IMG/VR virus record: IMGVR_UViG_3300009537_000143
Location: 1-27,086 of that record
Length of the DNA stretch: 27,086 nt
Direction: 5' to 3' (one strand)
From: a virus
Under the pieces are notes generated by a model. That model was given only the letters and a program-made list of their open reading frames with translations, did not search any database and had not been told where the DNA came from. This document shows positions 60-24,717 of the stretch, in pieces. The translations under genes and the position numbers were made by a program. Every line of letters begins with the position of its first letter. The first letter of the stretch is position 1.

Positions 60-60
60 G

Positions 61-122
61 GCAGCCTAGCAACCTAGACCCTCACTACAGGGTCTAGTGT
101 GGTACGCTGTTAGTAGTGTACT
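61..122 (+). promoter_or_regulatory. Structured leader element, copy 1
   Basis: Hairpin A is a 9-bp stem (74-82 with 89-97, loop 83-88). Three bases later hairpin B pairs GGTAC 101-105 with GTACT 118-122. Its loop begins GCTGTT (106-111), and this can pair with GCAGC 61-65 upstream, giving a possible pseudoknot. A TAGGAGGAGA ribosome-binding site follows before ATG 141. The conserved AGCAACC tract lies between the upstream strand and hairpin A. This copy has a longer B loop than the others. Confidence 0.7.
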
Positions 123-140
123 AAACTGTAGGAGGAGAAC

Positions 141-338
141 ATGGATACAAAAGAGCTGAAAAAAGAGCTGAAGCTGAAAAAGATAAAACCTAATGTGGCT
201 ATATCAAAAGAAACAGGATCTAAAGGTAGGATCCTGGGGATATTTAAATCTGGGAACGTTTTAGTCGAGGTGGTGTCCGCCAAAGGACACCACCGGGCCG
301 GTGATATTCTGATATGGCCGAAGGACTACATTACCTAG
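141..338 (+). CDS. Small protein of unknown function (65 aa)
   Basis: It begins at ATG 141 after a strong AGGAGGAGAAC ribosome-binding site. The N-terminal 20 residues are very lysine-rich (alternating KEL/KLK). The rest is beta-rich, with GRILGIFKSGNVLVEVVS and a C-terminal HHRAGDILIWPKDYI, which would suit a small SH3-like barrel. I do not recognise the family. It sits alone between leader elements 1 and 2, so it is a one-gene cassette. A nucleic-acid or protein-binding accessory role is possible, but nothing in the sequence proves it. Confidence 0.75.
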   Translation: MDTKELKKELKLKKIKPNVAISKETGSKGRILGIFKSGNVLVEVVSAKGHHRAGDILIWPKDYIT

Positions 339-395
339 ACAGCCCAGCAACCTGAGGGTCTAATCTAGACCCTCAGTGTGGTGCGCTGTTGCACC
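339..395 (+). promoter_or_regulatory. Structured leader element, copy 2
   Basis: It starts directly after the stop codon at 336-338. Upstream strand ACAGC is 339-343. Hairpin A has 11 bp (352-362 with 366-376). Hairpin B is GGTGC 380-384 with GCACC 391-395, and its loop GCTGTT (385-390) is complementary to ACAGC. Copy 5 is almost identical across the hairpins. Confidence 0.75.
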
Positions 396-416
396 GAAAC
401 CTAGTAGGAGGAGAAC

Positions 417-686
417 ATGGAGAAAAATACCGCAAAAAATCTGCTAGAAACAGAAAATATGATAACAAACACAACAGCTATCGTAAACATAACACTCGAA
501 GAAATCCTCTTAGCCAGTGATTACGACGAGGATGATGGTTTGGCCGACCTCAGAAAGCGCCTAACCTTCATTTCAAACTTGGCTTCCACGACGCTCGAGA
601 CCAAATCATCGGATAAATGGCTACAAATGCTATCGTACATCGGTATCGAGCTATCTTACAAGAGGGGTAAACGAGTACAAAACTAA
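417..686 (+). CDS. Small protein of unknown function (89 aa)
   Basis: ATG 417 follows a canonical TAGGAGGAGAAC site. The protein has an N-terminal stretch rich in Asn and Thr, an acidic centre (DYDEDDGLADLRKRL) and a helical C-terminal half ending in basic residues (YKRGKRVQN). No motif is recognised. It is bounded by leader copies 2 and 3, so it is another one-gene cassette just ahead of the MoxR-type ATPase. Its stop codon at 684-686 shares its last base with leader copy 3. Confidence 0.7.
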   Translation: MEKNTAKNLLETENMITNTTAIVNITLEEILLASDYDEDDGLADLRKRLTFISNLASTTLETKSSDKWLQMLSYIGIELSYKRGKRVQN

Positions 687-742
687 ACAGCTCAGCAACC
701 TAGGCTCTTGGTTAGGAGCCTAGTGTGATGCGCTGTTGCATC
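686..742 (+). promoter_or_regulatory. Structured leader element, copy 3
   Basis: Upstream strand AACAGC 686-691 is a perfect 6-base complement of loop GCTGTT 732-737. Hairpin A pairs 700-707 with 716-723 (8 bp, possibly 9 bp with one bulged G). Hairpin B is GATGC 727-731 with GCATC 738-742. Compared with the GGTGC/GCACC of other copies, both sides of one pair have changed (G-C to A-T). This is compensatory and supports an RNA structure. Confidence 0.75.
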
Positions 743-763
743 TAAGTTAAGTAGGAGGAGAAT

Positions 764-1882
764 ATGCAATACGACCAGTTCGTAGAGTTCGCTGAGGTCA
801 TGTTCAAATCTGGTCTACCCTTCATGGTGGAAGGAGAGCCGGGTATTGGAAAGACAGCGGGGATTAGTCTGGCGTGTAACAACCTAGGCTACGACTTAGT
901 TGTGTGTCAGTTGGCAGTACGCAGCCCTATTGAAGTAGGTGGGGTGCCGGCGCAAGCTAAACCCGCCACAGCCAAGAAATCAGCAGTATGGGACTTCCTA
1001 CCCGTAGGTGATCTTCGACGCATCATCGAAGCAACACGACCTACCGTGTTCTTCATGGATGACTTTGGTCACGCTTCAACGGCAACAATGAACGCAGCTA
1101 CGCACGTGTATGATGATCGCCGAGTTGGTGAACACGAAATAAGTTCATACGTGCGTATGTGTGCGGCCACTAACCGTACAGAAGACAAAGCCGGAGTTAA
1201 TCCAATCTTGGAAAACGTCAAGTCCAAGTGGACTACTATTGTCCACTTGGAGGTCAACGTGGATCCCTGGCTACGATGGGCATGGAACTGCGACGACGTC
1301 GGTCTGCTAGACAGGAAAGAACCCATGCCGAAGATCATTCCAGCTTTCATAAGCTGGAAAAAGGATATGCTGATGGGTTTCAAACCCAAACCAGGGCTGG
1401 AAAACAGCAGATCACCTAGAACGGTCCATCACGTTGGTAAGCTATTGGCGGCTGGTGCCGTTACTGAGTTGAACGCCTTCGAGACTATCAGCCGGGCTAC
1501 CGACAAGGGGTTCGCCACTGAGTTTATAGCGTTCCTAAAAATGTGGGCCCACCTTCCTGACCATGAGGAAGTTCTAGCTAATCCAGACGTTCTGGACAAC
1601 ATGACGTTCCAACGCTACAAATGGGACGAGGAAAAGAAAGGGGTTGTTCCAGATGGGATGGCTCCCATAAGTCAGAGACCAGACGTTGCCTATGCTCTAG
1701 TAACCTCCACAGCCGATATCGTGGAACCCGGAGATATGGGCAACTTCGTGAAGCTGGTTGGCAAGTTCCCCAAACCAGTAGAGGTGCTTGGTATGCTCTT
1801 GGTCAAGGATCGGGGGAACAGTCACCTCCAGACCCAAGCTTTCGTCGAGTGGGCTACCGAAAATCAATCGTACGTGATGTAA
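764..1882 (+). CDS. MoxR-type AAA+ ATPase
   Basis: A 372-aa AAA+ ATPase. The Walker A motif is GEPGIGKT at residues 24-31, Walker B is VFFMDD at 95-100, and the sensor-1 region is AATN near 134-137 followed by the expected ENVKSKW stretch. Length and order match the MoxR-like branch. MoxR ATPases typically work with a VWA-domain partner to remodel or assemble protein or metal-cofactor complexes. A VWA protein lies 1.6 kb downstream (3480-4679), with an unknown 301-aa protein between them. This three-gene arrangement supports a chaperone-like module, but the phage target is unknown. Start ATG 764 has the cassette ribosome-binding site. Leader copy 3 precedes it. Confidence 0.88.
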   Translation: MQYDQFVEFAEVMFKSGLPFMVEGEPGIGKTAGISLACNNLGYDLVVCQLAVRSPIEVGGVPAQAKPATAKKSAVWDFLPVGDLRRIIEATRPTVFFMDDFGHASTATMNAATHVYDDRRVGEHEISSYVRMCAATNRTEDKAGVNPILENVKSKWTTIVHLEVNVDPWLRWAWNCDDVGLLDRKEPMPKIIPAFISWKKDMLMGFKPKPGLENSRSPRTVHHVGKLLAAGAVTELNAFETISRATDKGFATEFIAFLKMWAHLPDHEEVLANPDVLDNMTFQRYKWDEEKKGVVPDGMAPISQRPDVAYALVTSTADIVEPGDMGNFVKLVGKFPKPVEVLGMLLVKDRGNSHLQTQAFVEWATENQSYVM

Positions 1883-1884
1883 CA

Positions 1885-1939
1885 ACAACGTAGCAACCTA
1901 GGCTCTTGGTTAGAGCCTAGTGTGGTGCGCTGTTGCACC
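1885..1939 (+). promoter_or_regulatory. Structured leader element, copy 4
   Basis: Hairpin A is 9 bp (1898-1906 with 1912-1920, loop TGGTT). Hairpin B is GGTGC 1924-1928 with GCACC 1935-1939, loop GCTGTT 1929-1934. The upstream strand here is ACAAC 1885-1889, which pairs with the loop with one A-C mismatch, so the pseudoknot is less perfect than in copies 2, 3, 5 and 8. Confidence 0.7.
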
Positions 1940-1963
1940 GAAACCTAGAAGTAGGAGGAGAAC

Positions 1964-2173
1964 ATGAAAATCCAACATGGTATCAAAGGTGATACACTTA
2001 CAGTATATCACCGAGACTTGTCAATTAAAACCCTACGGAAAATTCAGCATGATCTTAGTAAATACGCACACCTGAAAGCGTATGCTAAGTTCTATTCTGA
2101 CCTGGGTCAAGTAATAATCAAGCGTCGCGATTTTGAGGAGGCGGAAACCCCCCACAGAGAAGTAACAACCTAG
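1964..2173 (+). CDS. Small protein of unknown function (69 aa)
   Basis: Starts at ATG 1964 with the standard cassette ribosome-binding site. The protein opens with a short beta-like segment (HGIKGDTLTVYHRDLS), followed by a helical basic region (KTLRKIQHDLSKYAHLKAYAKFYSDLG) and a charged C-terminus. I do not recognise a family. It is a single-gene cassette between leader copies 4 and 5, inside the presumed MoxR/VWA module, so a linked role is possible but unproven. Confidence 0.7.
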   Translation: MKIQHGIKGDTLTVYHRDLSIKTLRKIQHDLSKYAHLKAYAKFYSDLGQVIIKRRDFEEAETPHREVTT

Positions 2174-2230
2174 ACAGCCCAGCAACCTGAGGGTCTAATC
2201 TAGACCCTCAGTGTGGTGCGCTGTTGCACT
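2174..2230 (+). promoter_or_regulatory. Structured leader element, copy 5
   Basis: Nearly identical to copy 2. Upstream strand ACAGC is 2174-2178, hairpin A has 11 bp (2187-2197 with 2201-2211), and hairpin B is GGTGC 2215-2219 with GCACT 2226-2230 (one G-U closing pair), loop GCTGTT 2220-2225. It begins immediately after the stop codon at 2171-2173. Confidence 0.75.
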
Positions 2231-2251
2231 ATCTAGAAGTAGGAGGAGAAC

Positions 2252-3157
2252 ATGACTACTCAGAAGTCAACCCAGAAAGAAGTCACCCCTGGAGATCTTA
2301 GCACTCGGGCTATGTGTGCCCGGATACAGATCCACCGTTGGGGTGCTAGGAAGAACGATGACAGTACTTCCAGAGAAGTAGCACAGTCGAAGCACGCTAA
2401 CCCAGATCTTGTCAGGGTTACGAAACAGCTTCTTAAGAGCACTGCTCTTGATGAGTTTCGCAAGGTCGCTCGACAGTGCAAAAAGACCCACAAATACCTC
2501 ACCGTCCCTTGGGATGATGGGGTAGGGCTACTTCCCACTGAGAACTACCTCCGATACACAGAAGAAATCGGTGAGAAACGTCGCGAAGCGATGGGTATTG
2601 CCGATGAGTTCGTAAAGGAGTACACAGCTCAGTGGCAGAACGGTCTATCGGACTATCGAAGACAGCAAGAAGGTCTTGGGGACGTGTTCGACGAGAGCGA
2701 CTATCCTGAACCGAAGTATGTAAAGGAAAAGTTCGGGATCGACGTTCGCCTTTACCCTATTCCTGACCCGAATGACTTTCGGGTAAAAGTCAGTGGAGAT
2801 GTGGCGAGCACCTTGAAGACGCAAATGATGAAGGACTTTCGCAATGATCTTCAACAAGCGTCCCGGGTGCCCATCATCCGGCTCCACAAGCTGGTAAAGC
2901 ACCTCCATGAAATGCTCCTGAACGATGAGGCTAGGCTACATGCCAGCTTGATAGGTAACGTCCAAGAGCTGATTGAGATCCTTCCAACCCTGAACATCTT
3001 CGATGATCCAGAGCTAAACAATCTGATCAAGCAGACTGACAAAACAATCTGCTCGGTCAGCGACATGAAGGCTCTGAAGAAGGATCCACTGTACCGTAAG
3101 GAGGTAGCAAAATCAGCTGCTAGCATACTGAAACAGATGAAAGGATACGTGTCATAA
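2252..3157 (+). CDS. Protein of unknown function in the MoxR/VWA module (301 aa)
   Basis: A soluble, mostly helical protein with several charged, probably coiled segments (roughly residues 90-140 and 190-260) and no catalytic motif I can point to. Its position between a MoxR-type ATPase and a VWA protein, and its size, recall the DUF3150-type proteins that accompany MoxR and VWA genes in other phages. That assignment rests on context and general resemblance, not on a recognised signature. It starts at ATG 2252 with an AGGAGGAGAAC site and is preceded by leader copy 5. It may be a substrate adaptor or structural partner of the ATPase. Confidence 0.75.
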   Translation: MTTQKSTQKEVTPGDLSTRAMCARIQIHRWGARKNDDSTSREVAQSKHANPDLVRVTKQLLKSTALDEFRKVARQCKKTHKYLTVPWDDGVGLLPTENYLRYTEEIGEKRREAMGIADEFVKEYTAQWQNGLSDYRRQQEGLGDVFDESDYPEPKYVKEKFGIDVRLYPIPDPNDFRVKVSGDVASTLKTQMMKDFRNDLQQASRVPIIRLHKLVKHLHEMLLNDEARLHASLIGNVQELIEILPTLNIFDDPELNNLIKQTDKTICSVSDMKALKKDPLYRKEVAKSAASILKQMKGYVS

Positions 3158-3210
3158 CAACGTAGCAACCTGGGGAACTTAGGTTCCCCAGTGTGGTGCG
3201 CTGTTGCACC
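3157..3210 (+). promoter_or_regulatory. Structured leader element, copy 6
   Basis: Hairpin A has a wholly different stem sequence from copies 1-5 (CTGGGGAAC 3170-3178 with GTTCCCCAG 3183-3191, 4-base loop) yet is perfectly paired over 9 bp. Hairpin B is GGTGC 3195-3199 with GCACC 3206-3210. The upstream strand ACAAC 3157-3161 pairs with the GCTGTT loop with one mismatch. It overlaps the preceding stop codon by one base. Confidence 0.75.
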
Positions 3211-3234
3211 GAAACCTAGAAGTAGGAGGAGAAA

Positions 3235-3483
3235 ATGACGATCAAAGTAGACAAAGGTATTCCCATACCCAAACCCCGTCAGGGAACTGGGTCAGGTTAT
3301 CCTTGGGACGACATGAAAGTTGGTGATTCCTTCTTCATCCCAAATGATGCAGAAAATATGAACAACGTAGCTCACCAGAACAAACTGTCGTCTGCAGCAC
3401 GTTCACGAAGAATGAACCACCCCAATGAAAAGTACACAGTCCGTGCTGTTAAGGGTGGTACAAGGGTATGGAGAATATCATGA
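3235..3483 (+). CDS. Small phage protein of unknown function (82 aa)
   Basis: The protein has a recognisable layout: a Pro/Lys-rich start (IPIPKPRQG), then YPWDDMKVGDSFFIP, a serine/arginine block (SSAARSRRMNHP) and a beta-like end (KYTVRAVKGGTRVWRIS). I have seen this arrangement in small uncharacterised phage proteins, but no function is known to me. It starts at ATG 3235 after AGGAGGAGAAA. Its stop TGA 3481-3483 overlaps the next start (ATG 3480), so it is translationally coupled to the VWA protein. Confidence 0.8.
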   Translation: MTIKVDKGIPIPKPRQGTGSGYPWDDMKVGDSFFIPNDAENMNNVAHQNKLSSAARSRRMNHPNEKYTVRAVKGGTRVWRIS

Positions 3484-4679
3484 ATAACGCAGAAACAAAG
3501 TATGTCCGCTGCGCCACACGGTTGCTGCGGATGTACCCTTTCTGGGGAAATCTACTGCTCGGATTTGAGACTAGTCAATCGTCAGACGTCCCTACTATGG
3601 CGACTGATGGTACGCGACTAGTTTACAATCCCGAGTTCGTGGAAAACACACAAGACGAGCAAATCTGCTCCCTTCAGGCACATGAGTGCGGGCACAAGAT
3701 GTTCTTAGATCACCTCAGGCGCGGTCGTCGTGACCCAAGGCTCTGGAATGTTGCGTGTGACTACCGCATAAACTACTATCTGAAGGACAGTGGACTGAAG
3801 CTTAGTGAAAAGTTGCTCTACGATGAGAGATTCCACAGATGGGGTTGGGATGCTGAAAAGATCTACGACTTCCTTGAACAAAACCCTGACGACCCCGCCA
3901 ATAAGCAGTCCAAAGAAAAAGGTGGCTGCGGTTGCGGAGGTTTAAGGGACCACCAATCCCAATCAGAACAAGACGACCCCAGTGAAGGTACTGGTCCAGG
4001 TAACGGATCAGAAGATAGTGAGTCAGGTTCTGGAAACTCTCCTAGTGCCAACTTTGGTGAAGCCGAAGTAATGATGTCTGTAGCACAGGCACGTGCCTTT
4101 GCCAAGGCTCGAGGAAAGATGCCAGGATCCCTCGAAGAACTGATCGAGGAAATCCTGAACCCTAAAATCCGGTGGGAACAGGTGCTCCAGCGTTTCATGG
4201 AGTGTTGTTGTCAGGATGACTTCTCCTGGCAAGTTCCAGACCGACGTTTTCTGTATCTGGATATGTATCTTCCAGGTGTAGAAAGCGAAGGAGTAGATAC
4301 TTTCACCGTGGTAGTAGATACCTCAGGGTCTACCATATCGTTCATGACTCAGTTCCTAAGCGAAGTCAGCAAGATCGCAAGGGTACTGAAGTTCAAGAAA
4401 CTGTACGTAATCTACTGTGATACACGCGTACAGCACGTGGATGAATATGGTCCTGAAGACCTACCAATCAAACCAAGTCGTACTTACGGGGGTGGTGGCA
4501 CCGACTTTAGGCCAGTCTTCAACTGGATAGAAGAACGCGGGATCGAGCCAAAGGGTATGGTATTCCTTACCGATACCTATGGTGCGTTTCCAACTGCGCC
4601 TACATATCCAGTTCTCTGGACTGTACCTAAAGACCTCCGAGTAGAAGTACCTTTCGGTGAGATACTGCGCATAGAGTAG
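3480..4679 (+). CDS. Metallopeptidase-like VWA-domain protein
   Basis: About 399 residues. The N-terminal half carries HECGH (residues 68-72), a zinc-metallopeptidase HExxH-type motif, followed by RLWNVACDYRINYYL, as in putative VWA-linked metallopeptidases (DUF2201-like). A Gly/Ser/Asp/Gln-rich linker with a CGCG cluster (about 145-195) leads to a C-terminal VWA domain with the MIDAS sequence DTSGS at 280-284, then GGGGTDFRP and FLTD. It is the expected partner of the MoxR-type ATPase at 764. I chose ATG 3480 rather than ATG 3468 because GGAGA lies seven bases ahead of it and it makes an ATGA overlap with the preceding gene. Whether the peptidase site is active cannot be judged here. Confidence 0.85.
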   Translation: MNNAETKYVRCATRLLRMYPFWGNLLLGFETSQSSDVPTMATDGTRLVYNPEFVENTQDEQICSLQAHECGHKMFLDHLRRGRRDPRLWNVACDYRINYYLKDSGLKLSEKLLYDERFHRWGWDAEKIYDFLEQNPDDPANKQSKEKGGCGCGGLRDHQSQSEQDDPSEGTGPGNGSEDSESGSGNSPSANFGEAEVMMSVAQARAFAKARGKMPGSLEELIEEILNPKIRWEQVLQRFMECCCQDDFSWQVPDRRFLYLDMYLPGVESEGVDTFTVVVDTSGSTISFMTQFLSEVSKIARVLKFKKLYVIYCDTRVQHVDEYGPEDLPIKPSRTYGGGGTDFRPVFNWIEERGIEPKGMVFLTDTYGAFPTAPTYPVLWTVPKDLRVEVPFGEILRIE

Positions 4680-4688
4680 GAGGAGAAA

Positions 4689-4937
4689 GTGAAAAACGAA
4701 CAGCCGTTGGAAGTGATCCCAACGTACACAGGAACCACCGTGGCTAGAGGACCTTACGTGGTCATATCCTTTGATACTGAACAATGGATAAAACACCGTA
4801 AGACCTTCAAAAGGTTCTCCGAAGCTGAAACCTGGGCAAGCAAAAACTGCGAGGTAGGAAATGGTAACGGATACATGATCCTAGAGAAAGCAGAAGCTAC
4901 TACTGACTATATCCAGTTCCAATTACAAGACGTATAG
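4689..4937 (+). CDS. Small protein of unknown function (82 aa)
   Basis: It begins with GTG 4689 directly after TAGGAGGAGAAA, which overlaps the stop of the VWA gene. There is no hairpin leader, so it is read from the same transcript. The middle is aromatic and basic (WIKHRKTFKRFSEAETWASKN) and looks like the small helical domains of phage accessory proteins. The end is acidic. No family is recognised. The start is well supported by the ribosome-binding site, which is identical to those of the cassettes. Confidence 0.7.
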   Translation: MKNEQPLEVIPTYTGTTVARGPYVVISFDTEQWIKHRKTFKRFSEAETWASKNCEVGNGNGYMILEKAEATTDYIQFQLQDV

Positions 4938-4990
4938 CAACGTAGCAACCTGGAGAGTCTAGGCTCTCCAGTGTGGTGCGCTGTTGCACT
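4937..4990 (+). promoter_or_regulatory. Structured leader element, copy 7
   Basis: Hairpin A is another independent sequence (CTGGAGAG 4950-4957 with CTCTCCAG 4964-4971). Hairpin B is GGTGC 4975-4979 with GCACT 4986-4990. The upstream strand GCAAC 4937-4941 can pair imperfectly with the loop, or perfectly with GTTGC 4983-4987, but the latter would open hairpin B. It shares one base with the preceding stop codon. Confidence 0.7.
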
Positions 4991-5014
4991 GAAACCTAGA
5001 AGTAGGAGGAGAAC

Positions 5015-5575
5015 ATGCTATCTACACACTTAAACCCAAATGGTGACAAAGTTCAATACGAACACGGTAACAGGGTTAGTCTCGGTGACGGGGTTAGTCT
5101 CGGTTACAGGGTTAGTCTCGGTGACGGGGTTAGTCTCGGTGATTGGGTTAGGCTCGGTAACGAGGTTAGTCTCGGTAACGGGGTTAGTCTCGGTGCTTGG
5201 GTTAGGCTCGGTAACAGGGTTAGGCTCGGTAACAGGGTTAGTCTCGGTAACAGGGTTAGGCTCGGTAACAGGGTTAGGCTCGGTGACGAGGTTAGTCTTG
5301 GTAACGAGGTTAGTCTCGGTGACGGGGTTAGGCTCGAAAAAGAAGACATAATCTGTGCTGGGAGAGACTTGCGTAGTTACGAGTTTATTGGTTATCGAGA
5401 CCAAGATAACAGGCTAGTCATCTCAGCTGGGTGTCGTACGGGTCTGCCATTTAACCGAGCAAGCAAACACTGGGACCCAAAAACATATACTTCCTCCGGT
5501 GATATAAAAGACATCAATTGTAAACTCAATTATATCACGGCTGTAGCTAAACAACGCGGATGGGACCTTACCTGA
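5015..5575 (+). CDS. Hexapeptide-repeat (left-handed beta-helix-like) protein
   Basis: Residues 21-110 are 15 back-to-back six-residue units of the form V-[SR]-L-G-x-x, for example VSLGDG and VRLGNR; the last unit is degenerate (VRLEKE). L-G-x-x-V-x is the classic hexapeptide of left-handed parallel beta helices, as in acyltransferases. Fifteen units would give five triangular coils. The C-terminal 75 residues are a separate domain with YEFIGYRDQDNRLVISAG, RTGLPF and KHWDPKTYTSSGDI. No acyltransferase catalytic histidine loop is evident, so the helix may be structural or binding. Start ATG 5015 has AGGAGGAGAAC. Leader copy 7 precedes it, and its stop lies inside leader copy 8. Confidence 0.8.
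   Translation: MLSTHLNPNGDKVQYEHGNRVSLGDGVSLGYRVSLGDGVSLGDWVRLGNEVSLGNGVSLGAWVRLGNRVRLGNRVSLGNRVRLGNRVRLGDEVSLGNEVSLGDGVRLEKEDIICAGRDLRSYEFIGYRDQDNRLVISAGCRTGLPFNRASKHWDPKTYTSSGDIKDINCKLNYITAVAKQRGWDLT
5075..5344 (+). repeat. 18-bp coding tandem repeat, about 15 copies
   Basis: The repeat unit is close to GTTAGTCTCGGTAACGGG, varying mainly at the last few bases and at AGT/AGG. It encodes the hexapeptide units of the surrounding gene. Because it is in frame and multiples of 18 bases are kept, copy number can change by slippage or recombination without breaking the frame. The similarity between copies at DNA level suggests recent expansion. Confidence 0.9.
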
Positions 5576-5628
5576 CGTAGCGCCTTGAGGCTCTAATTTC
5601 TAGAGCCTCACACGGTACGTCAGGTACC
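5572..5628 (+). promoter_or_regulatory. Structured leader element, copy 8 (divergent)
   Basis: The most diverged copy and the most informative. Hairpin A is TGAGGCTCTA 5586-5595 with TAGAGCCTCA 5601-5610. Hairpin B is GGTAC 5614-5618 with GTACC 5624-5628. Its loop has become GTCAG (5619-5623) instead of GCTGTT, and the upstream strand has become CTGAC (5572-5576), still an exact complement. An alternative is one long outer helix, 5569-5578 with 5617-5626. It overlaps the stop of the hexapeptide gene. Confidence 0.7.
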
Positions 5629-5652
5629 AATCTGAAATGTAGGAGGAGATCG

Positions 5653-6454: not shown

Positions 6455-6472
6455 TAATCTCCTCCTAAAACT

Positions 6473-6514
6473 TAGAGACTGTAGCCTTTTTTAGGTTGCA
6501 GTCTCTACTTTTGT
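6473..6514 (+). terminator. Probable intrinsic terminator
   Basis: TAGAGACTG 6473-6481 pairs with CAGTCTCTA 6499-6507. The helix can be extended through TAGCC/GGTTG with wobble pairs, around a T-rich loop, and is followed by CTTTTGTTT. This fits an intrinsic terminator closing the first 6.4 kb of the operon. On the minus strand the same hairpin is followed by AGTTTTAGG, so it may act weakly in both directions. Confidence 0.65.
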
Positions 6515-12123: not shown

Positions 12124-12732
12124 ATGCTAGCCAAACAAGCTAAGACACTTGACGACCGGCATCTCATGCGGTTGTACCGCAAGCGGGCACGTAAGTGGGG
12201 TGAGAACTATCTCCGAAGACATTGGTGGCGAATAGCTGTGATGTATGATCATGAAGATCTGCAGCAAGAGGCGTTACTTGTTTTTGTTCGAGTGTATAGA
12301 CACTTCCCAGGACGCTCTGAAGCAGATCTATTCCGTATCTATAAAAGGTCCTTGTCAGGACTACTGGTAAATAGAAGCAAACAATGCTTTCCCAACCCAC
12401 ATGCCTATATCAAAGGGATCGGGCGTTTTGTTACCGAGATGGATGAGGATAAACTCGCACAACCCTTCGAACATGAAGCAGACGCGTTTTTGACCTACTA
12501 TTCTAGCGTTGCCGCTAGATTGCCTGCGGAATTAGCTGAGGTCTTAAAATTGCTTATTAGGGACCTAGTTGGGGTTTCGTGTATTGAGCAACGAAGGGCA
12601 CGAAAGACGTCAGGAGGGACAAGGACAGAACCACTTAACGTAGCCTTGGCGCGGATTGTAGGTAGCAATACGTCAAGGGATCTACTGTCAGAACTTGAGA
12701 CGGCACTAAATGAGGGAGTAGAGAAAACATGA
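12124..12732 (+). CDS. Sigma-factor-like protein (region-2-type)
   Basis: 202 residues. Residues about 36-90 resemble sigma-70 region 2: YDHEDLQQEALLVFVRVYRHF followed by a helical segment ending in LVNRSKQ. This suggests a divergent phage sigma factor that redirects the host RNA polymerase, for example to late promoters. The C-terminal half (residues 110-200) is helical, but I see no clear region 4 helix-turn-helix, so it could also be a sigma-like DNA-binding protein of other function. ATG 12124 has a weak, possibly masked AAGGGG site. It overlaps the next gene by four bases (ATGA). Confidence 0.65.
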   Translation: MLAKQAKTLDDRHLMRLYRKRARKWGENYLRRHWWRIAVMYDHEDLQQEALLVFVRVYRHFPGRSEADLFRIYKRSLSGLLVNRSKQCFPNPHAYIKGIGRFVTEMDEDKLAQPFEHEADAFLTYYSSVAARLPAELAEVLKLLIRDLVGVSCIEQRRARKTSGGTRTEPLNVALARIVGSNTSRDLLSELETALNEGVEKT

Positions 12733-13517
12733 CGACCCACGCAATCGAAACCGAATTATTGAAAGTCACGGGGGTAAAACCCCAGCGCAAAAAGGAGGAC
12801 GAACAAAAGTACCTAATGAGACTCTTGAACGCCATATCCCATAAGAGTATCACAGATGAGGTGTTCTTTGGGATGTCTGATGAAACCCAACAATGGGTCG
12901 ATGAAGGGGTAGCAGCTGTAGCTAACAGTCAAGATATCCCTTACTTCAACGCAGTGGTTGGGGAAGATGAAGACGAGGAAGATGAAGACGAAGACGAGGA
13001 AGAGGTAGAAGAGGAGGATGAAGACGAAGACGAGGAAGAGGTAGAAGAGGAAGATGAAGACGAAGACGAAGACGAGGAAGAGGTAGAAGAGGAGGATGAA
13101 GACGAAGACGAGGAAGATGAAGACGAAGATAATGAAGCCGACGAAGACGAAGATGAACCTGAGGAAGAAGAGGAGTATGAAGAAATGACAGTCAAGAAAG
13201 CTAAGTCCAAGAAGTCGAAGTCAGAGAAGAAGGATAGCACCAAGGCCAAGGTTAAGAAGATCAAGACCAAGGTTGTCAAAGCCAAGGTCAAGAAGTCTGA
13301 TAAGAGTACTGGATCAAAACGTGGGCGACCTAGTTCTTTTACTGGCAAAAAGATCAAAATCCTGGAACGAAAGCCCAAGATCCGAGAGGGCACCTTACGT
13401 GCGGAGCGATGGGATCTTGCCGTTAAATCCAAAACGGTGGATGCGTATATCGCAGCAGGAGGTAAGTCAGGGTTTCTCAAGGTAGCCATTGACCAGGGAT
13501 GGATTGAATTGGTCTGA
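12729..13517 (+). CDS. Acidic/basic low-complexity protein of unknown function
   Basis: 262 residues in distinct blocks: a helical head (1-75), an almost pure Asp/Glu stretch (about 78-155), a lysine-rich block (about 160-205, with KKAKSKKSKS and KVKK units), then a short folded C-terminus (AERWDLAVKSKTVDAYIAAG onward). It resembles nucleoplasmin-, histone-H1- or nucleolin-type charge blocks rather than an enzyme. It may buffer basic proteins or bind nucleic acid. The start ATG 12729 overlaps the sigma-like gene's stop (ATGA), so the two are co-translated. The SSB at 23650 has the same acid-then-basic tail order. Confidence 0.75.
   Translation: MTTHAIETELLKVTGVKPQRKKEDEQKYLMRLLNAISHKSITDEVFFGMSDETQQWVDEGVAAVANSQDIPYFNAVVGEDEDEEDEDEDEEEVEEEDEDEDEEEVEEEDEDEDEDEEEVEEEDEDEDEEDEDEDNEADEDEDEPEEEEEYEEMTVKKAKSKKSKSEKKDSTKAKVKKIKTKVVKAKVKKSDKSTGSKRGRPSSFTGKKIKILERKPKIREGTLRAERWDLAVKSKTVDAYIAAGGKSGFLKVAIDQGWIELV
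12962..13171 (+). repeat. Asp/Glu-coding tandem repeat
   Basis: A purine-rich stretch of GAAGAC, GATGAA and GAGGAA codons with internal units of roughly 36-42 bases containing GAGGAAGAGGTAGAAGAGGA. It encodes the acidic block of the surrounding gene. Such a repeat can change length by slippage. The opposite strand is open as a long serine run, which is a by-product and not a gene. Confidence 0.85.
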
Positions 13518-18830: not shown

Positions 18831-21560
18831 TTGACCAGTGGGCTATTCTCTGAAGACGAGTTTGCATCAAAGCGGCGGACTCAGTTTCAACGGTCTGAGC
18901 GTACCTTGGAAAAGATGGGGTGCAAGGCTTGTCCTCTGAACAACGCGAAAGATTTACAACATCCTAAGATGCCAGCTACGGGGGCGGATCGTCCGCTTGT
19001 ATACTTTCTAGGAGAAGGACCAGGACAGGAAGAAGATAAGCTCGGTAGGCAGTTCGTAGGTAGATCTGGTAAGCTCCTTCGCGAATATATTCCAAAAGAT
19101 CTACTCCCTAAGATACGTTGGAATAACACGATAAATTGCAGACCACCAAATAACGCTACACCAACCTCTGTCGAAATTGCTTGTTGTCGTTCACGTTTGG
19201 TAGAAGACATAGAGCGCACGAAACCCAAAGCGATCTTTGGACTCGGCGGTGTTCCCCTCAAATGGGCTGTTGAAGAAGAACGAATAACCGCGTGGCGTGG
19301 TCTACGTGTCCCTGTCAAAATAGGAAATCACTGCTGCTATTACTACCCCTTCTATCACCCCTCGTACCTAGGACGGATGCGAAGGGTTAATCCTAGAACC
19401 AGAAAATCTATCCCCAGTGAAATGGAAAAACTCTTTGAGTCTGATATTATACGCGCAATCGAAGAAGTATCATTGTTACCTGATGCTACTGTAGTGGGGG
19501 GAGATGAGATAACATCAGGTATTACCACCGTAACTGGTAAAGAAAAGGATCTAGAACTAGTCTTGGAAAAGCTACACGAATACGGAGATCTACCTTTTGT
19601 GGCGTTTGATTATGAAACAGCCAGTGATGAGAAGGGTGTAGATCGACAAGTTAGACCTTACGGACACAATGCGCGGATACTAAGCATAGCAGTAGGTACC
19701 GAAGACGACGTACTAGCTTTTCCACTTTATCATAGAGAAGCATGTTGGTCAAAAAACGATCTTAATATCTTACTTGCAGCATGGGAATCGTTTCTCTGTT
19801 CACAGGCTGAAAAAATTGTTCACCATTTATTCTTTGAACTTGAGTGGACAGTAGAACTGTTTGGAAAACACCTAGCCAGATGCTGCACCTGGCATGACAC
19901 AATGGCACAGGCATATGTTCTAGGTCGTCCAAAGGGAACGACGAACCTTGACGCCCTCGTATTAACCAATTTTGGGTTCCGACTTAAAAGAGTAGCTCCG
20001 GTAAACACCTCTGATCTGGATAGCGAACCATTGGATCGCGTGTTACTCTATAACGCATTGGATACCAAGTGGACACACGCGCTATTCGAGATTCAAGCAG
20101 AGGAAATTAAATATGAAGAACGCGACAAAGTGTACCTAGAACAAGTAAGGAGAACTCCAACTGTCGTGCTAAAGTCACACTTTGGTATGCTAGTAGATTT
20201 TGGCGCCATCCTTGAGTTCGATAAAAAGTACAGTCCTCAAATAATAGAACTGGAAGAGTGGTTCAAATCTTGTCCTGAAACCAAGAAATTCCTTGAGCGT
20301 ATAGGACGGAAGTTCAAACCAGCCTCTCCAAAAGATGTACAGCTCATGCTCACGAATATTCTAGGACGTAGGGAATGCAAGGTTGGAGAAGACGAGTACG
20401 GTAAGGTTAAGTACTCTACTGAAGATGCTGTATTAGAACAGATCCCCCTAGAAATCGCGCAGAAGATACGAGAGTACCGTGCTGTTAGAGGAAACAAATC
20501 AAAATATGTAGATCCATTATTTCCTAAAGGTTATGACCCAAGAGTATATGTCAATCGGCGGTCGGTTGGAAAATGTATCTGGCCAGATGGTATGACACAC
20601 GCTGCTATAAAAACTCAATTCCTTGTGACTAGACGTACATCTTGTGAGTTTCCTAACGAACAGTTCTGGCCAAAACGCGATGAAGGTTATGCTGATCTAC
20701 GTAGATTATTTATAGCTCCGACGCGAAACGTACGAAAAAGATTAATAGACGGATTGAACTTATATCTACCCAGTCACATTTGCGAAGATGACTGCTGGTT
20801 TGTAACAATAGACTATGGTCAAATGCAGGCACGTATTGCTGGTATGTTATCTGGAGATGAGGTTTACTGTAAATATCTCTGGGACCGTAATGACCTTCAC
20901 ATGCGTTGGACAAAAGAACTAGCTCGTGCTTATCCTAGACGCATAGGAGGAAAGAAATTTCTTAAAGATAAAGACACAATAAAGAAGTTTAGAACGGATG
21001 TTAAAAACCAATGGACGTTTCCTCTAATCTTCGGAGCCACTGCAAAATCAGTATCAGAGTATCTACATATTCCAGTAGAGCATCTTAAACCTCTGATAAA
21101 ACAGTTCTTCCTTGAAATGCCGGGACTTGCACAGTGGCAAAGAGAAACTAGACAGTTCTACGATGAATATGGATACGTAGAAGGACCTACAGGATGGCGT
21201 CGTTATAGTCCAATGGATCATGGTGAAGTTATAAATACTCCTATTCAGAATGGAGAAGCAGAGATAGTTATGGATGCGATGACTAGACTCTCAGAAGTAG
21301 CACAAGAACTTGACATGTGGCAATTTCAAGCTCGGTTGATGGTGCATGACGAACTTGCCTTCTGGATTCCTAAGAGGACTATTGATAGGGATCTAGAGTT
21401 CATTGCTCAGGAAATGCTAAAGTGCGAACACTTTGATTGGGTCACTGTCCCATTGGCACTGGAGATATCTAAAGGTAAGAATTGGTTCAATCAAGATAAT
21501 GTATCAACTGTATATAGTGACGACCTTGGGCTCATTAGCCGTGAACAACACGGATTTTAG
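18831..21560 (+). CDS. Uracil-DNA glycosylase / family A DNA polymerase fusion
   Basis: 909 residues. Residues 1-215 are a family-4-type uracil-DNA glycosylase: Cys 31, 34, 103 and 119 in C-x2-C-x68-C-x15-C spacing for an iron-sulphur cluster, GEGPGQEEDKLGRQFVGRSG (61-80), NTINCRPP (99-106) and YHPSYL (175-180). Next comes a 3'-5' exonuclease domain (FDYETA, D260; YNALDT). Family A polymerase motifs follow: IDYGQMQAR (motif A), RTDVKNQWTF (motif B) and MVHDELAF (motif C). Start TTG 18831 (AAGGA upstream) is the first in frame; a later start cannot be excluded. It is the main replicative polymerase here, working with the clamp and loader. Oddities: motif A has Gln where most relatives have Glu, and exonuclease motif II reads HHLFFE. 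Confidence 0.9.
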   Translation: MTSGLFSEDEFASKRRTQFQRSERTLEKMGCKACPLNNAKDLQHPKMPATGADRPLVYFLGEGPGQEEDKLGRQFVGRSGKLLREYIPKDLLPKIRWNNTINCRPPNNATPTSVEIACCRSRLVEDIERTKPKAIFGLGGVPLKWAVEEERITAWRGLRVPVKIGNHCCYYYPFYHPSYLGRMRRVNPRTRKSIPSEMEKLFESDIIRAIEEVSLLPDATVVGGDEITSGITTVTGKEKDLELVLEKLHEYGDLPFVAFDYETASDEKGVDRQVRPYGHNARILSIAVGTEDDVLAFPLYHREACWSKNDLNILLAAWESFLCSQAEKIVHHLFFELEWTVELFGKHLARCCTWHDTMAQAYVLGRPKGTTNLDALVLTNFGFRLKRVAPVNTSDLDSEPLDRVLLYNALDTKWTHALFEIQAEEIKYEERDKVYLEQVRRTPTVVLKSHFGMLVDFGAILEFDKKYSPQIIELEEWFKSCPETKKFLERIGRKFKPASPKDVQLMLTNILGRRECKVGEDEYGKVKYSTEDAVLEQIPLEIAQKIREYRAVRGNKSKYVDPLFPKGYDPRVYVNRRSVGKCIWPDGMTHAAIKTQFLVTRRTSCEFPNEQFWPKRDEGYADLRRLFIAPTRNVRKRLIDGLNLYLPSHICEDDCWFVTIDYGQMQARIAGMLSGDEVYCKYLWDRNDLHMRWTKELARAYPRRIGGKKFLKDKDTIKKFRTDVKNQWTFPLIFGATAKSVSEYLHIPVEHLKPLIKQFFLEMPGLAQWQRETRQFYDEYGYVEGPTGWRRYSPMDHGEVINTPIQNGEAEIVMDAMTRLSEVAQELDMWQFQARLMVHDELAFWIPKRTIDRDLEFIAQEMLKCEHFDWVTVPLALEISKGKNWFNQDNVSTVYSDDLGLISREQHGF

Positions 21561-23465: not shown

Positions 23466-23669
23466 ATGGAGTTTCTGACCAATCTGCTGTACGAGCTAAT
23501 CGTTGTTATATATTGGACATTGGTAACGATTGGGATCGTGATAGCTGTATTAGTTGTTTGCTATGCTGCCGCACGAATTATAGCAGTAGCTTGGCACCGA
23601 ACAAAGCGAGAGTTCGCTATAATGAACCGCAACGAAAAGGAACATAGACATGGCAAAGAAGACAAGTAA
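23466..23669 (+). CDS. Small single-span membrane protein (67 aa)
   Basis: ATG 23466 lies four bases after the previous stop with AGGGAA overlapping it. A single hydrophobic span (LIVVIYWTLVTIGIVIAVLV, about residues 11-30) is followed by a basic, polar C-terminus, expected to be in the cytoplasm. Its end overlaps the SSB gene start by 20 bases, so it is co-translated with it. A role in membrane tethering of the replication machinery, or in host takeover, is only speculative. Confidence 0.7.
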   Translation: MEFLTNLLYELIVVIYWTLVTIGIVIAVLVVCYAAARIIAVAWHRTKREFAIMNRNEKEHRHGKEDK

Positions 23670-24717
23670 GAAGTCCAAAAAGACTGGACGTAAGAAGTCA
23701 GAGTTCAAATACCGAGCTCGTTCCCGAGAAAGCTACGAACGTAGCGCCTCGGAGAGCTCGGGATCATTTGACAGTTACGTAAAAGACGGAACTTCCCGGT
23801 TCCAGCCACACGATGGAAACAACCGAATACGTATCCTTCCTCCCACCTTCGAAGATCCAGACAGCTTCGCACTTTCAATGCTCGTACACTATAGGGTAGG
23901 AGCAGACGAACAGACCTACCTGTGTCGCAAGATGTTAGATAACGACGAAGATTGTGCTATCTGCGATGAGTACAGTAAACGGGTCTTGGATGGTGAAGCT
24001 GATGAAGCGGTTGGCTTCAAGCAAAAGAAGAGAAAGGCAATCTGGCTTATAGACCGCAAGGCTGAGGAGGATGGACCACAATTCTGGGCTATGCCTTTCG
24101 GTACTTGGAAAGACGTCGTCCTGGTATGTAAAGACGAAGATGGGGACGTTATCGACTTAGACGAACCCAACGAAGGACGAGACGTACTCTTCACCAAAGA
24201 GGGTGCCCAACTACGAACCAAGTACACGGGTGTTCGCCTAGGTAAGCAACGACCCATTTTCGATAATGACAACGCTACTGAAGACGCACTAGAATTTGTC
24301 CAGGAGAACCCTCTGGATAAGGTGCTAAACTTTTACGAGAACGAATATCTACGTGCAGTCCTGGAAGGTAAATCCACCCGACGTACTAATGATGATGATG
24401 ATGACGAGGAAGAGGAAGAGGAAGACAGCTCAGAAGAGTCAGAGGATGAGGAAGATGAAGAAGATGAGAGTTCAGAAGACGAGGACGAAGAGGATGAGGA
24501 GGTAGAAGAAGAGGAAGACGACGACGAGGACGACGAAGAAGAGGAGGATGAAGACGAGGATGAGGAAGACGAGGATGAGGAAGAAGAGGAAGAAAAGCCT
24601 AGGAAGCGCAGTCGTGTAGATTCAGATAAGTCAGCTAAGAACCGTCTAAAAGCAGCAGCGCAAAGAGCTCGAGAAGCTACTGCAAAAGGCAAGAAGTCGG
24701 GAAAGCGTCGTAGATAA
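23650..24717 (+). CDS. gp32-like single-stranded DNA-binding protein
   Basis: 355 residues. The N-terminus is basic (KKTSKKSKKTGRKK), then GNNRIRILPP (56-65) and HYRVGADEQTYLCRKM followed by DEDCAICDEY (about 99-108). This Cys pattern (92, 102, 105) fits the zinc-bearing core of gp32-type SSBs. Residues about 248-314 are almost all Asp/Glu, and the last 40 are basic (KPRKRSRV to KKSGKRRR). A usual SSB ends in its acidic tail, so the added basic tip is odd. It protects single strands and may load the recombinase, whose gene starts two bases after this stop. Confidence 0.82.
   Translation: MAKKTSKKSKKTGRKKSEFKYRARSRESYERSASESSGSFDSYVKDGTSRFQPHDGNNRIRILPPTFEDPDSFALSMLVHYRVGADEQTYLCRKMLDNDEDCAICDEYSKRVLDGEADEAVGFKQKKRKAIWLIDRKAEEDGPQFWAMPFGTWKDVVLVCKDEDGDVIDLDEPNEGRDVLFTKEGAQLRTKYTGVRLGKQRPIFDNDNATEDALEFVQENPLDKVLNFYENEYLRAVLEGKSTRRTNDDDDDEEEEEEDSSEESEDEEDEEDESSEDEDEEDEEVEEEEDDDEDDEEEEDEDEDEEDEDEEEEEEKPRKRSRVDSDKSAKNRLKAAAQRAREATAKGKKSGKRRR
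24390..24594 (+). repeat. Asp/Glu-coding purine-rich repeat in the SSB gene
   Basis: A run of GAY and GAR codons, interrupted only by a few serine and valine codons, encodes the acidic tail. Like the stretch at 12962, it is low complexity and prone to slippage. The opposite strand is open as polyserine by composition only. Confidence 0.85.

Follow-up and report, generated by a model that had tools for sequence, protein, structure and literature searches.

Introduction

In prophages, clustered hammerhead ribozymes flank single genes and have been proposed to process long phage transcripts into single-gene messages; they cleaved in vitro and, in a single case, also in E. coli (PMC3088659, Perreault et al., 2011). 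Pistol ribozymes were found in 2015 through their association with phage and ribozyme neighbourhoods (PMC4604425). Another kind of repeat is known from cluster K mycobacteriophages (PMC3203893) and from cluster EF Microbacterium phages (PMC7302621), where conserved sequences or inverted repeats, the SAS/ESAS, lie 5' of many small genes. They combine a 13-bp GGGATAGGAGCCC-type SAS with 17-bp inverted repeats that lack RNA pairing, and for cluster K the authors saw little to support mRNA hairpins and favoured DNA-binding sites (PMC3203893).

The window described here is the whole stretch of DNA that was analysed, 27,086 bases, which make up the complete IMG/VR fragment of a tailed-phage-like genome. 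As judged by sequence comparison, its leaders are an undescribed family of structured RNAs, present as one copy per gene and interchangeable with type II hammerheads. The comparisons support their structure, their conservation across phages, their position, and their exchange with hammerheads.

The window and its leaders

A MoxR-type ATPase and a DUF2201 protein are coded in the window, a pair also known in N4-like phages, together with a RecA-like protein, a thymidylate synthase-like protein, and a DNA polymerase A with a UDG domain. The last of these is a single ORF (18831-21560) in which the uracil-DNA glycosylase domain is N-terminal to the polymerase (Pfam UDG, DNA_pol_A); an ORF of the relative G001, 71% identical, aligns with it over its whole length. 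Long acidic, D/E-rich runs are present in two ORFs (12729-13517 and 23650-24717), and the ORF behind the seventh leader (5015-5575) has about 15 units of an 18-bp tandem repeat (VSLGDGVRLGN-type). A host search with a DUF2201-type protein profile (A7) against genome contigs found no relative.

The first 6.4 kb contain 11 plus-strand ORFs, and eight of these have a leader of common build in front of them (Table 1). All eight lie at the positions given by an earlier, sequence-only reading of this DNA. For copies 2-8, the gap from stop codon to start codon is 77-81 nt, and the first strand of the leader, P1, begins at the stop codon of the preceding gene or within it, leaving no space within the gap for a separate promoter. 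Since the leaders adjoin the upstream stop codons, a single transcript is the simplest reading for these genes. On the minus strand at 6458-6512, TAGGAGGAGA followed by ATG lies 3' of a hairpin, GTAGAGACTG/CAGTCTCTA, which may be a terminator or an opposite-strand leader.

Table 1. Positions of the eight leader copies in the window (all on the plus strand) and of their parts, with covariance-model scores. SD, Shine-Dalgarno sequence.
Copy	Span	Strand	P1 5' strand	Hairpin A	Hairpin B	P1 3' strand	SD	Gene start	Bits	Remarks
1	60-138	+	60-65	74-97	101-122	106-111	129-138	141	52.3	hairpin B with 12-nt loop
2	338-414	+	338-343	352-376 (11 bp)	380-395	385-390	405-414	417	65.1	
3	686-761	+	686-691	700-723	727-742 (GATGC/GCATC)		752-761	764	65.5	before MoxR-type ATPase gene 764-1882; hammerhead here in G001 ortholog
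4	1884-1961	+	1884-1889 (one A-C mismatch)	1898-1920	1924-1939		1952-1961		70.9	after ATPase gene; window-class leader there in G001 too
5	2173-2249	+	2173-2178	2187-2211	2215-2230		2240-2249		63.3	before 301-aa gene; hammerhead here in G001 ortholog
6	3156-3232	+	3156-3161 (A-C mismatch)	3170-3191	3195-3210		3223-3232		75.5	
7	4936-5012	+	4936-4941 (A-C mismatch)	4950-4971	4975-4990		5003-5012		69	
8	5572-5649	+	5572-5576 (CUGAC)	5586-5610	5614-5628		5640-5649		29.4	divergent; hairpin B loop GUCAG; nearest in sequence to G022 copies

Each leader begins with the 5' strand of P1 and a linker that ends in AGC plus at least two bases. Hairpins A and B come next, three bases apart, and a spacer of 6-12 nt then leads to TAGGAGGAGA and the start codon. 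The 3' strand of P1 is the loop of hairpin B, so that P1 closes a pseudoknot. Across the family, the conserved parts are YAGC ahead of hairpin A and GRURC/GYAYC in hairpin B. The sequence-only reading had described hairpin A as paired in every copy with several unrelated stems, and this holds: 9-11 bp form in all eight copies from six distinct sequences, identical in copies 2 and 5 and near-identical in copies 3 and 4. The variants it listed for hairpin B are likewise present as GGTGC/GCACC, GATGC/GCATC, and GGTAC/GTACC(T). The complementarity it had seen in some copies between the hairpin B loop and an upstream strand is real, and it extends to copy 1, where GGCAGC pairs with GCUGUU (two G-U) despite the 12-nt loop. 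In copy 8 both sides of P1 have changed together, as reported, and the weaker pairing reported for copies 4, 6, and 7 comes down to one A-C mismatch in each.

A single A-C or C-A mismatch near the inner end of P1 recurs in copies 4, 6, and 7, in the locus L204, and in a leader of the phage G024 (L233 8975). Such mismatches occupy eight cells of alignment A5, and the recurrent one could be an A+.C wobble.

Covariation

Alignment A4, made by hand and without gaps, contains the eight copies (c1-c8) and one copy from a related phage. With the pseudoknot structure, 97.8% of its cells are paired, and 16 of the 20 pairs have changed on both sides; the observed pairing is reached by 0/500 shuffles, and only 28-49% of cells pair when the register is slid. 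A search motif that asks for at least 8 bp in hairpin A and for 4 bp each in hairpin B and P1 occurs in 7/8 leaders and in 6/2000 mononucleotide shuffles, copy 1 being missed only because of its long loop. Across phages, 95.9% of the cells of a 16-row alignment are paired, with both-side changes in 15/17 pairs. In hairpin B, columns 36-48 and 38-46 covary through all four combinations (GGUGC, GAUGC, GGUAC, and GAUAC with their complements).

P1 has been set against the swapped loops of other leaders in 14 members. The pairing energies of the leaders' own strands sum to -75.3, while the permuted sets have a mean of -37.3 (sd 8.0) and 0/100,000 are as low, a figure that somewhat overstates the certainty, since the G024 members add little to it and part of the set was selected by eye, to some extent on P1. 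Within the two hairpins, the sense strand has eight G-U cells versus one A-C cell, which favours a sense-strand RNA over a DNA cruciform. Selection on RNA structure, which the sequence-only reading had argued for, is thus supported by A4, the 16-row alignment, and the loop swap; it includes the pseudoknot and extends to divergent relatives in other phages.

A close relative with hammerheads in the same slot

The nearest relative, G001 (IMGVR_UViG_3300037247_000847, 95.9 kb), was found through its polymerase. Identity with the window is 71% for the polymerase, 70% for the ATPase, 64% for DUF2201, and 59% for the 301-aa gene. Leaders recur along the syntenic block of G001 (L032), again ahead of TAGGAGGAGA, and nine of them read as type II hammerheads. 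The type II hammerhead model RF02276 gives three of the G001 leaders 40.8, 40.6, and 38.7 bits (cut-off 37), and a fourth lies just below, at 35.9. One leader is of the window class and stands after the ATPase gene, as copy 4 does; it scores 53.3 bits with R2, the covariance model used for scoring, though it is itself in the R2 training set. By eye it reads UAGU, GUGGCAAC, hairpin A, UGU, and GAUGC-ACUAUC-GCAUC.

Orthologs identified by BLASTP show what has been exchanged. The ATPase gene is preceded by copy 3 in the window and by a hammerhead in G001, and the 301-aa gene by copy 5 and a hammerhead, respectively; the DUF2201 gene, with a hammerhead in G001, lacks a leader in the window. With a hammerhead or a window-class leader before orthologous genes, the two kinds of RNA stand in for each other, and hammerheads at the same place in relatives point to RNA cleavage or processing. 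The roles suggested in the sequence-only reading, namely regulation of translation by a protein or ligand, shielding from nucleases, and modules for recombination, have the standing of proposals.

Other phage lineages

An IMG/VR pattern combining hammerhead core, Shine-Dalgarno sequence, and ATG matches 89 stretches; when the stems were checked, a good part of the contigs concerned, roughly two dozen or more, proved to carry type II hammerheads. A search with RF02276 found hammerheads in G001, G012, G014, G015, and G022. Two lineages, G012 (IMGVR_UViG_3300032105_000042) and the pair G022/G010 (IMGVR_UViG_3300050821_001302 and 3300021170_000070), were fetched for their hammerheads only, independently of the window class, and in both the hammerheads are mixed with divergent window-class leaders of other sequence before Shine-Dalgarno sites. 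Two of these were found by covariance model, at 18.9 and 17.7 bits. Among 92 control loci without confirmed hammerheads, R2 has one match above 15 bits, L034 (18.1), itself picked by the pattern of this leader, so that R2 scores of 17-19 bits are only suggestive unless accompanied by the Shine-Dalgarno position. The model of the 16-row alignment, R3, is weak. One divergent leader, L138 +10065, reads CUGAC, GCAGCCC, hairpin A, CA, and GAUAC-GUCA-GUAUC; further examples are L138 +11828, L143 +10584, and L143 +11891.

A further phage, G024 (IMGVR_UViG_3300045996_001029), was fetched by the window-class pattern alone. It has a series of leaders of similar build, which by their sequence are likely members of the class, and its sole hammerhead signal is weak (26.9 bits) and away from all Shine-Dalgarno sites. 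The class is thus present there with no convincing hammerhead, and the association of the two is not universal. The IMG/VR pattern scans for the leader returned mostly chance matches: the only real one among 8 stretches is the G001 copy, and among 29 only L204 and the G022/G010 pair are real. A loose descriptor gave 150 matches in 1265 leaders, mostly chance, and was left out as evidence.

Contigs L100, L145, and L151 (G014, G015) each hold a run of type II hammerheads, about seven or more, every one just before a Shine-Dalgarno sequence, and no window-class leader was found in these three contigs. In G022, a leader at about 10160-10260 of L143 folds into a seemingly perfect hairpin, over 20 bp long, before a Shine-Dalgarno sequence and belongs neither to the hammerheads nor to the window class.

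Comparison with described elements

The sequence-only reading knew no named RNA family with this layout, and Rfam agrees: the window has no match at gathering, and cmscan with all 4227 Rfam models up to E 10 gives four chance-level matches far below gathering, none of them a ribozyme. In particular, the Rfam models of the twister, twister-sister, hatchet, HDV-like, and hairpin ribozymes have no match in the window up to E 10. Searches by blastn with the region and with one leader against 50,697 phage records returned nothing useful. No published description of such leaders was found in the open literature that was searched, outside which many journals fall.

The type II hammerhead (RF02276) is the nearest likeness. 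Both RNAs occupy the slot between stop codon and Shine-Dalgarno sequence in related phages, recur serially before different genes, have a variable first hairpin, and form a pseudoknot with the loop of the second. They differ in the CUGANGA/GAAA core, which is absent from the window leaders, and in the pseudoknot partner, which is upstream of hairpin A in the window leader and downstream of stem II for the stem I loop of the hammerhead. Since the leaders lack CUGANGA and RF02276 has no match in the window up to E 10, they are not type II hammerheads. The likeness to pistol is one of topology and phage association only: there too, a hairpin loop pseudoknots with a strand that adjoins another hairpin. 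In pistol, however, the loop hairpin comes first and P2 brackets the partner strand, whereas in the window leader it comes last and no P2 is seen. This order differs from the published description (PMC4604425), and Rfam gives no pistol match up to E 10. The order would match a circularly permuted pistol stripped of P2, but the leaders have neither P2 nor the conserved bases. The SAS/ESAS are alike in placement only, that is, in a repeated ribosome-binding region with conserved sequences or inverted repeats 5' of many small genes (PMC3203893; PMC7302621). The window sequences differ from theirs: the Shine-Dalgarno sequence is TAGGAGGAGA, and the arms covary as RNA, which sets the leaders outside that group.

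A proposed role and its rivals

A leader that takes a hammerhead's place, flanked by the same stop codon and Shine-Dalgarno sequence, most likely does the same job. The reading that we prefer, at a little below an even chance, is that the leaders are a pseudoknotted class doing the work of hammerheads, probably by self-cleavage, and that they cut polycistronic phage RNA into single-gene messages. A co-transcribed phage operon would carry one leader per gene, between each stop codon and the next Shine-Dalgarno sequence. Each leader would cleave itself or otherwise be cut at a fixed place, self-cleavage being the most economical mechanism. The cut would split the polycistronic RNA, and the new 5' end would start with a small hairpin just before the ribosome-binding site. 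By analogy with the hammerhead, which is cut between its two hairpins, the cut site may lie between hairpins A and B. What we infer here is that the RNA is cut, that RNA catalyses the cut, where the cut falls, and how the phage gains from it. The stronger form of the proposal is put forward tentatively, the balance leaning against it: that these pseudoknotted RNAs of about 55-65 nt, with a fold of their own, make up a new ribozyme class that cleaves itself, is present in at least four phage lineages, and is swapped with hammerheads before orthologous genes. Few unpaired bases are strictly conserved across lineages, namely the C of AGC and the first G of hairpin B; this seems little for a catalytic core and counts against a ribozyme.

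A second fold competes with the pseudoknot. The linker can pair with the 5' arm of hairpin B, competing for the GRURC strand, and this pairing is available in 86% of cells. The resulting nested form is possible in 97.6% of A4 cells, as many as for the pseudoknot, and it is the minimum-energy fold of copies 2-8; the RNA may thus be a switch or a plain long hairpin. The structure proposed in the sequence-only reading stands as regards the pseudoknot, with the addition of this nested pairing, which the palindromic layout permits and which that reading lacked. As the sole structure the nested hairpin is rejected, since hairpin B covaries, but it is possible as an alternative state. Its pair 7-38 is mostly U-G wobble. 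Columns 8, 37, and 47 are A-U-A in 12 rows and U-A-U in two, a pattern that fits both folds and could reflect a switch or a base triple.

The nested form is also what a protein nuclease might recognise, as an imperfect helix of about 20 bp (P1, short helices mismatched at regular points, and hairpin A) cut by RNase III or a similar host enzyme. RNase III-type cutting occurs at T7 gene boundaries. The availability and stability of the nested fold would suit such a site, and its outcome and position would match those of the hammerheads. Hairpin B and the covarying pairs 36-48 and 38-46 would be left unexplained, however, and pair 7-38 covaries only through wobble and is disrupted in L138a; we consider a nuclease site unlikely.

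Unlikely, too, is an uncut pseudoknot that stabilises the 5' end or insulates the gene, blocking nucleases or keeping upstream coding RNA off the ribosome-binding site. It would agree with a pseudoknot just 5' of a strong Shine-Dalgarno sequence in every copy, with a structure that is kept while its sequence drifts, and with the hairpin that hammerhead cleavage would likewise leave at the new 5' end. Protection, however, calls for a 5' end close by, whereas the leaders adjoin a stop codon and the gap has no space for a promoter. Less probable still is a translational operator or ribosome-binding aid, in which a phage or host protein, or a ligand, would bind the pseudoknot and coordinate the eight genes, with the GRURC pairings as the switch. 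The fixed distance to the Shine-Dalgarno sequence and the dual complementarity of columns 8, 37, and 47 are in its favour, but the U-A-U rows all come from one genome, there is no conserved anti-Shine-Dalgarno strand, and hammerheads before the orthologous genes would remove an operator. A DNA-level repeat like the cluster K ESAS, a palindromic site for a DNA protein, shares a placement 5' of conserved start-associated sequences (PMC3203893), but is very improbable, as the window arms covary as RNA while ESAS arms, by the account of the cluster K authors, do not, and no single protein would recognise the unrelated hairpin A sequences.

Concluding remarks

Cleavage by a pseudoknotted RNA that would take the place of hammerheads, the reading preferred here, bears on a small group of molecules: few natural classes of self-cleaving ribozyme are known, and at least one recent class, pistol, came from just such neighbourhoods. 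The same gene, with a hammerhead in one phage and another RNA in its cousin, is a natural swap experiment, through which the long-standing problem of the function of phage hammerheads can be tested directly. Should the leaders be non-catalytic, they would still be an undescribed covarying leader RNA that serves as a per-gene module in phage operons.
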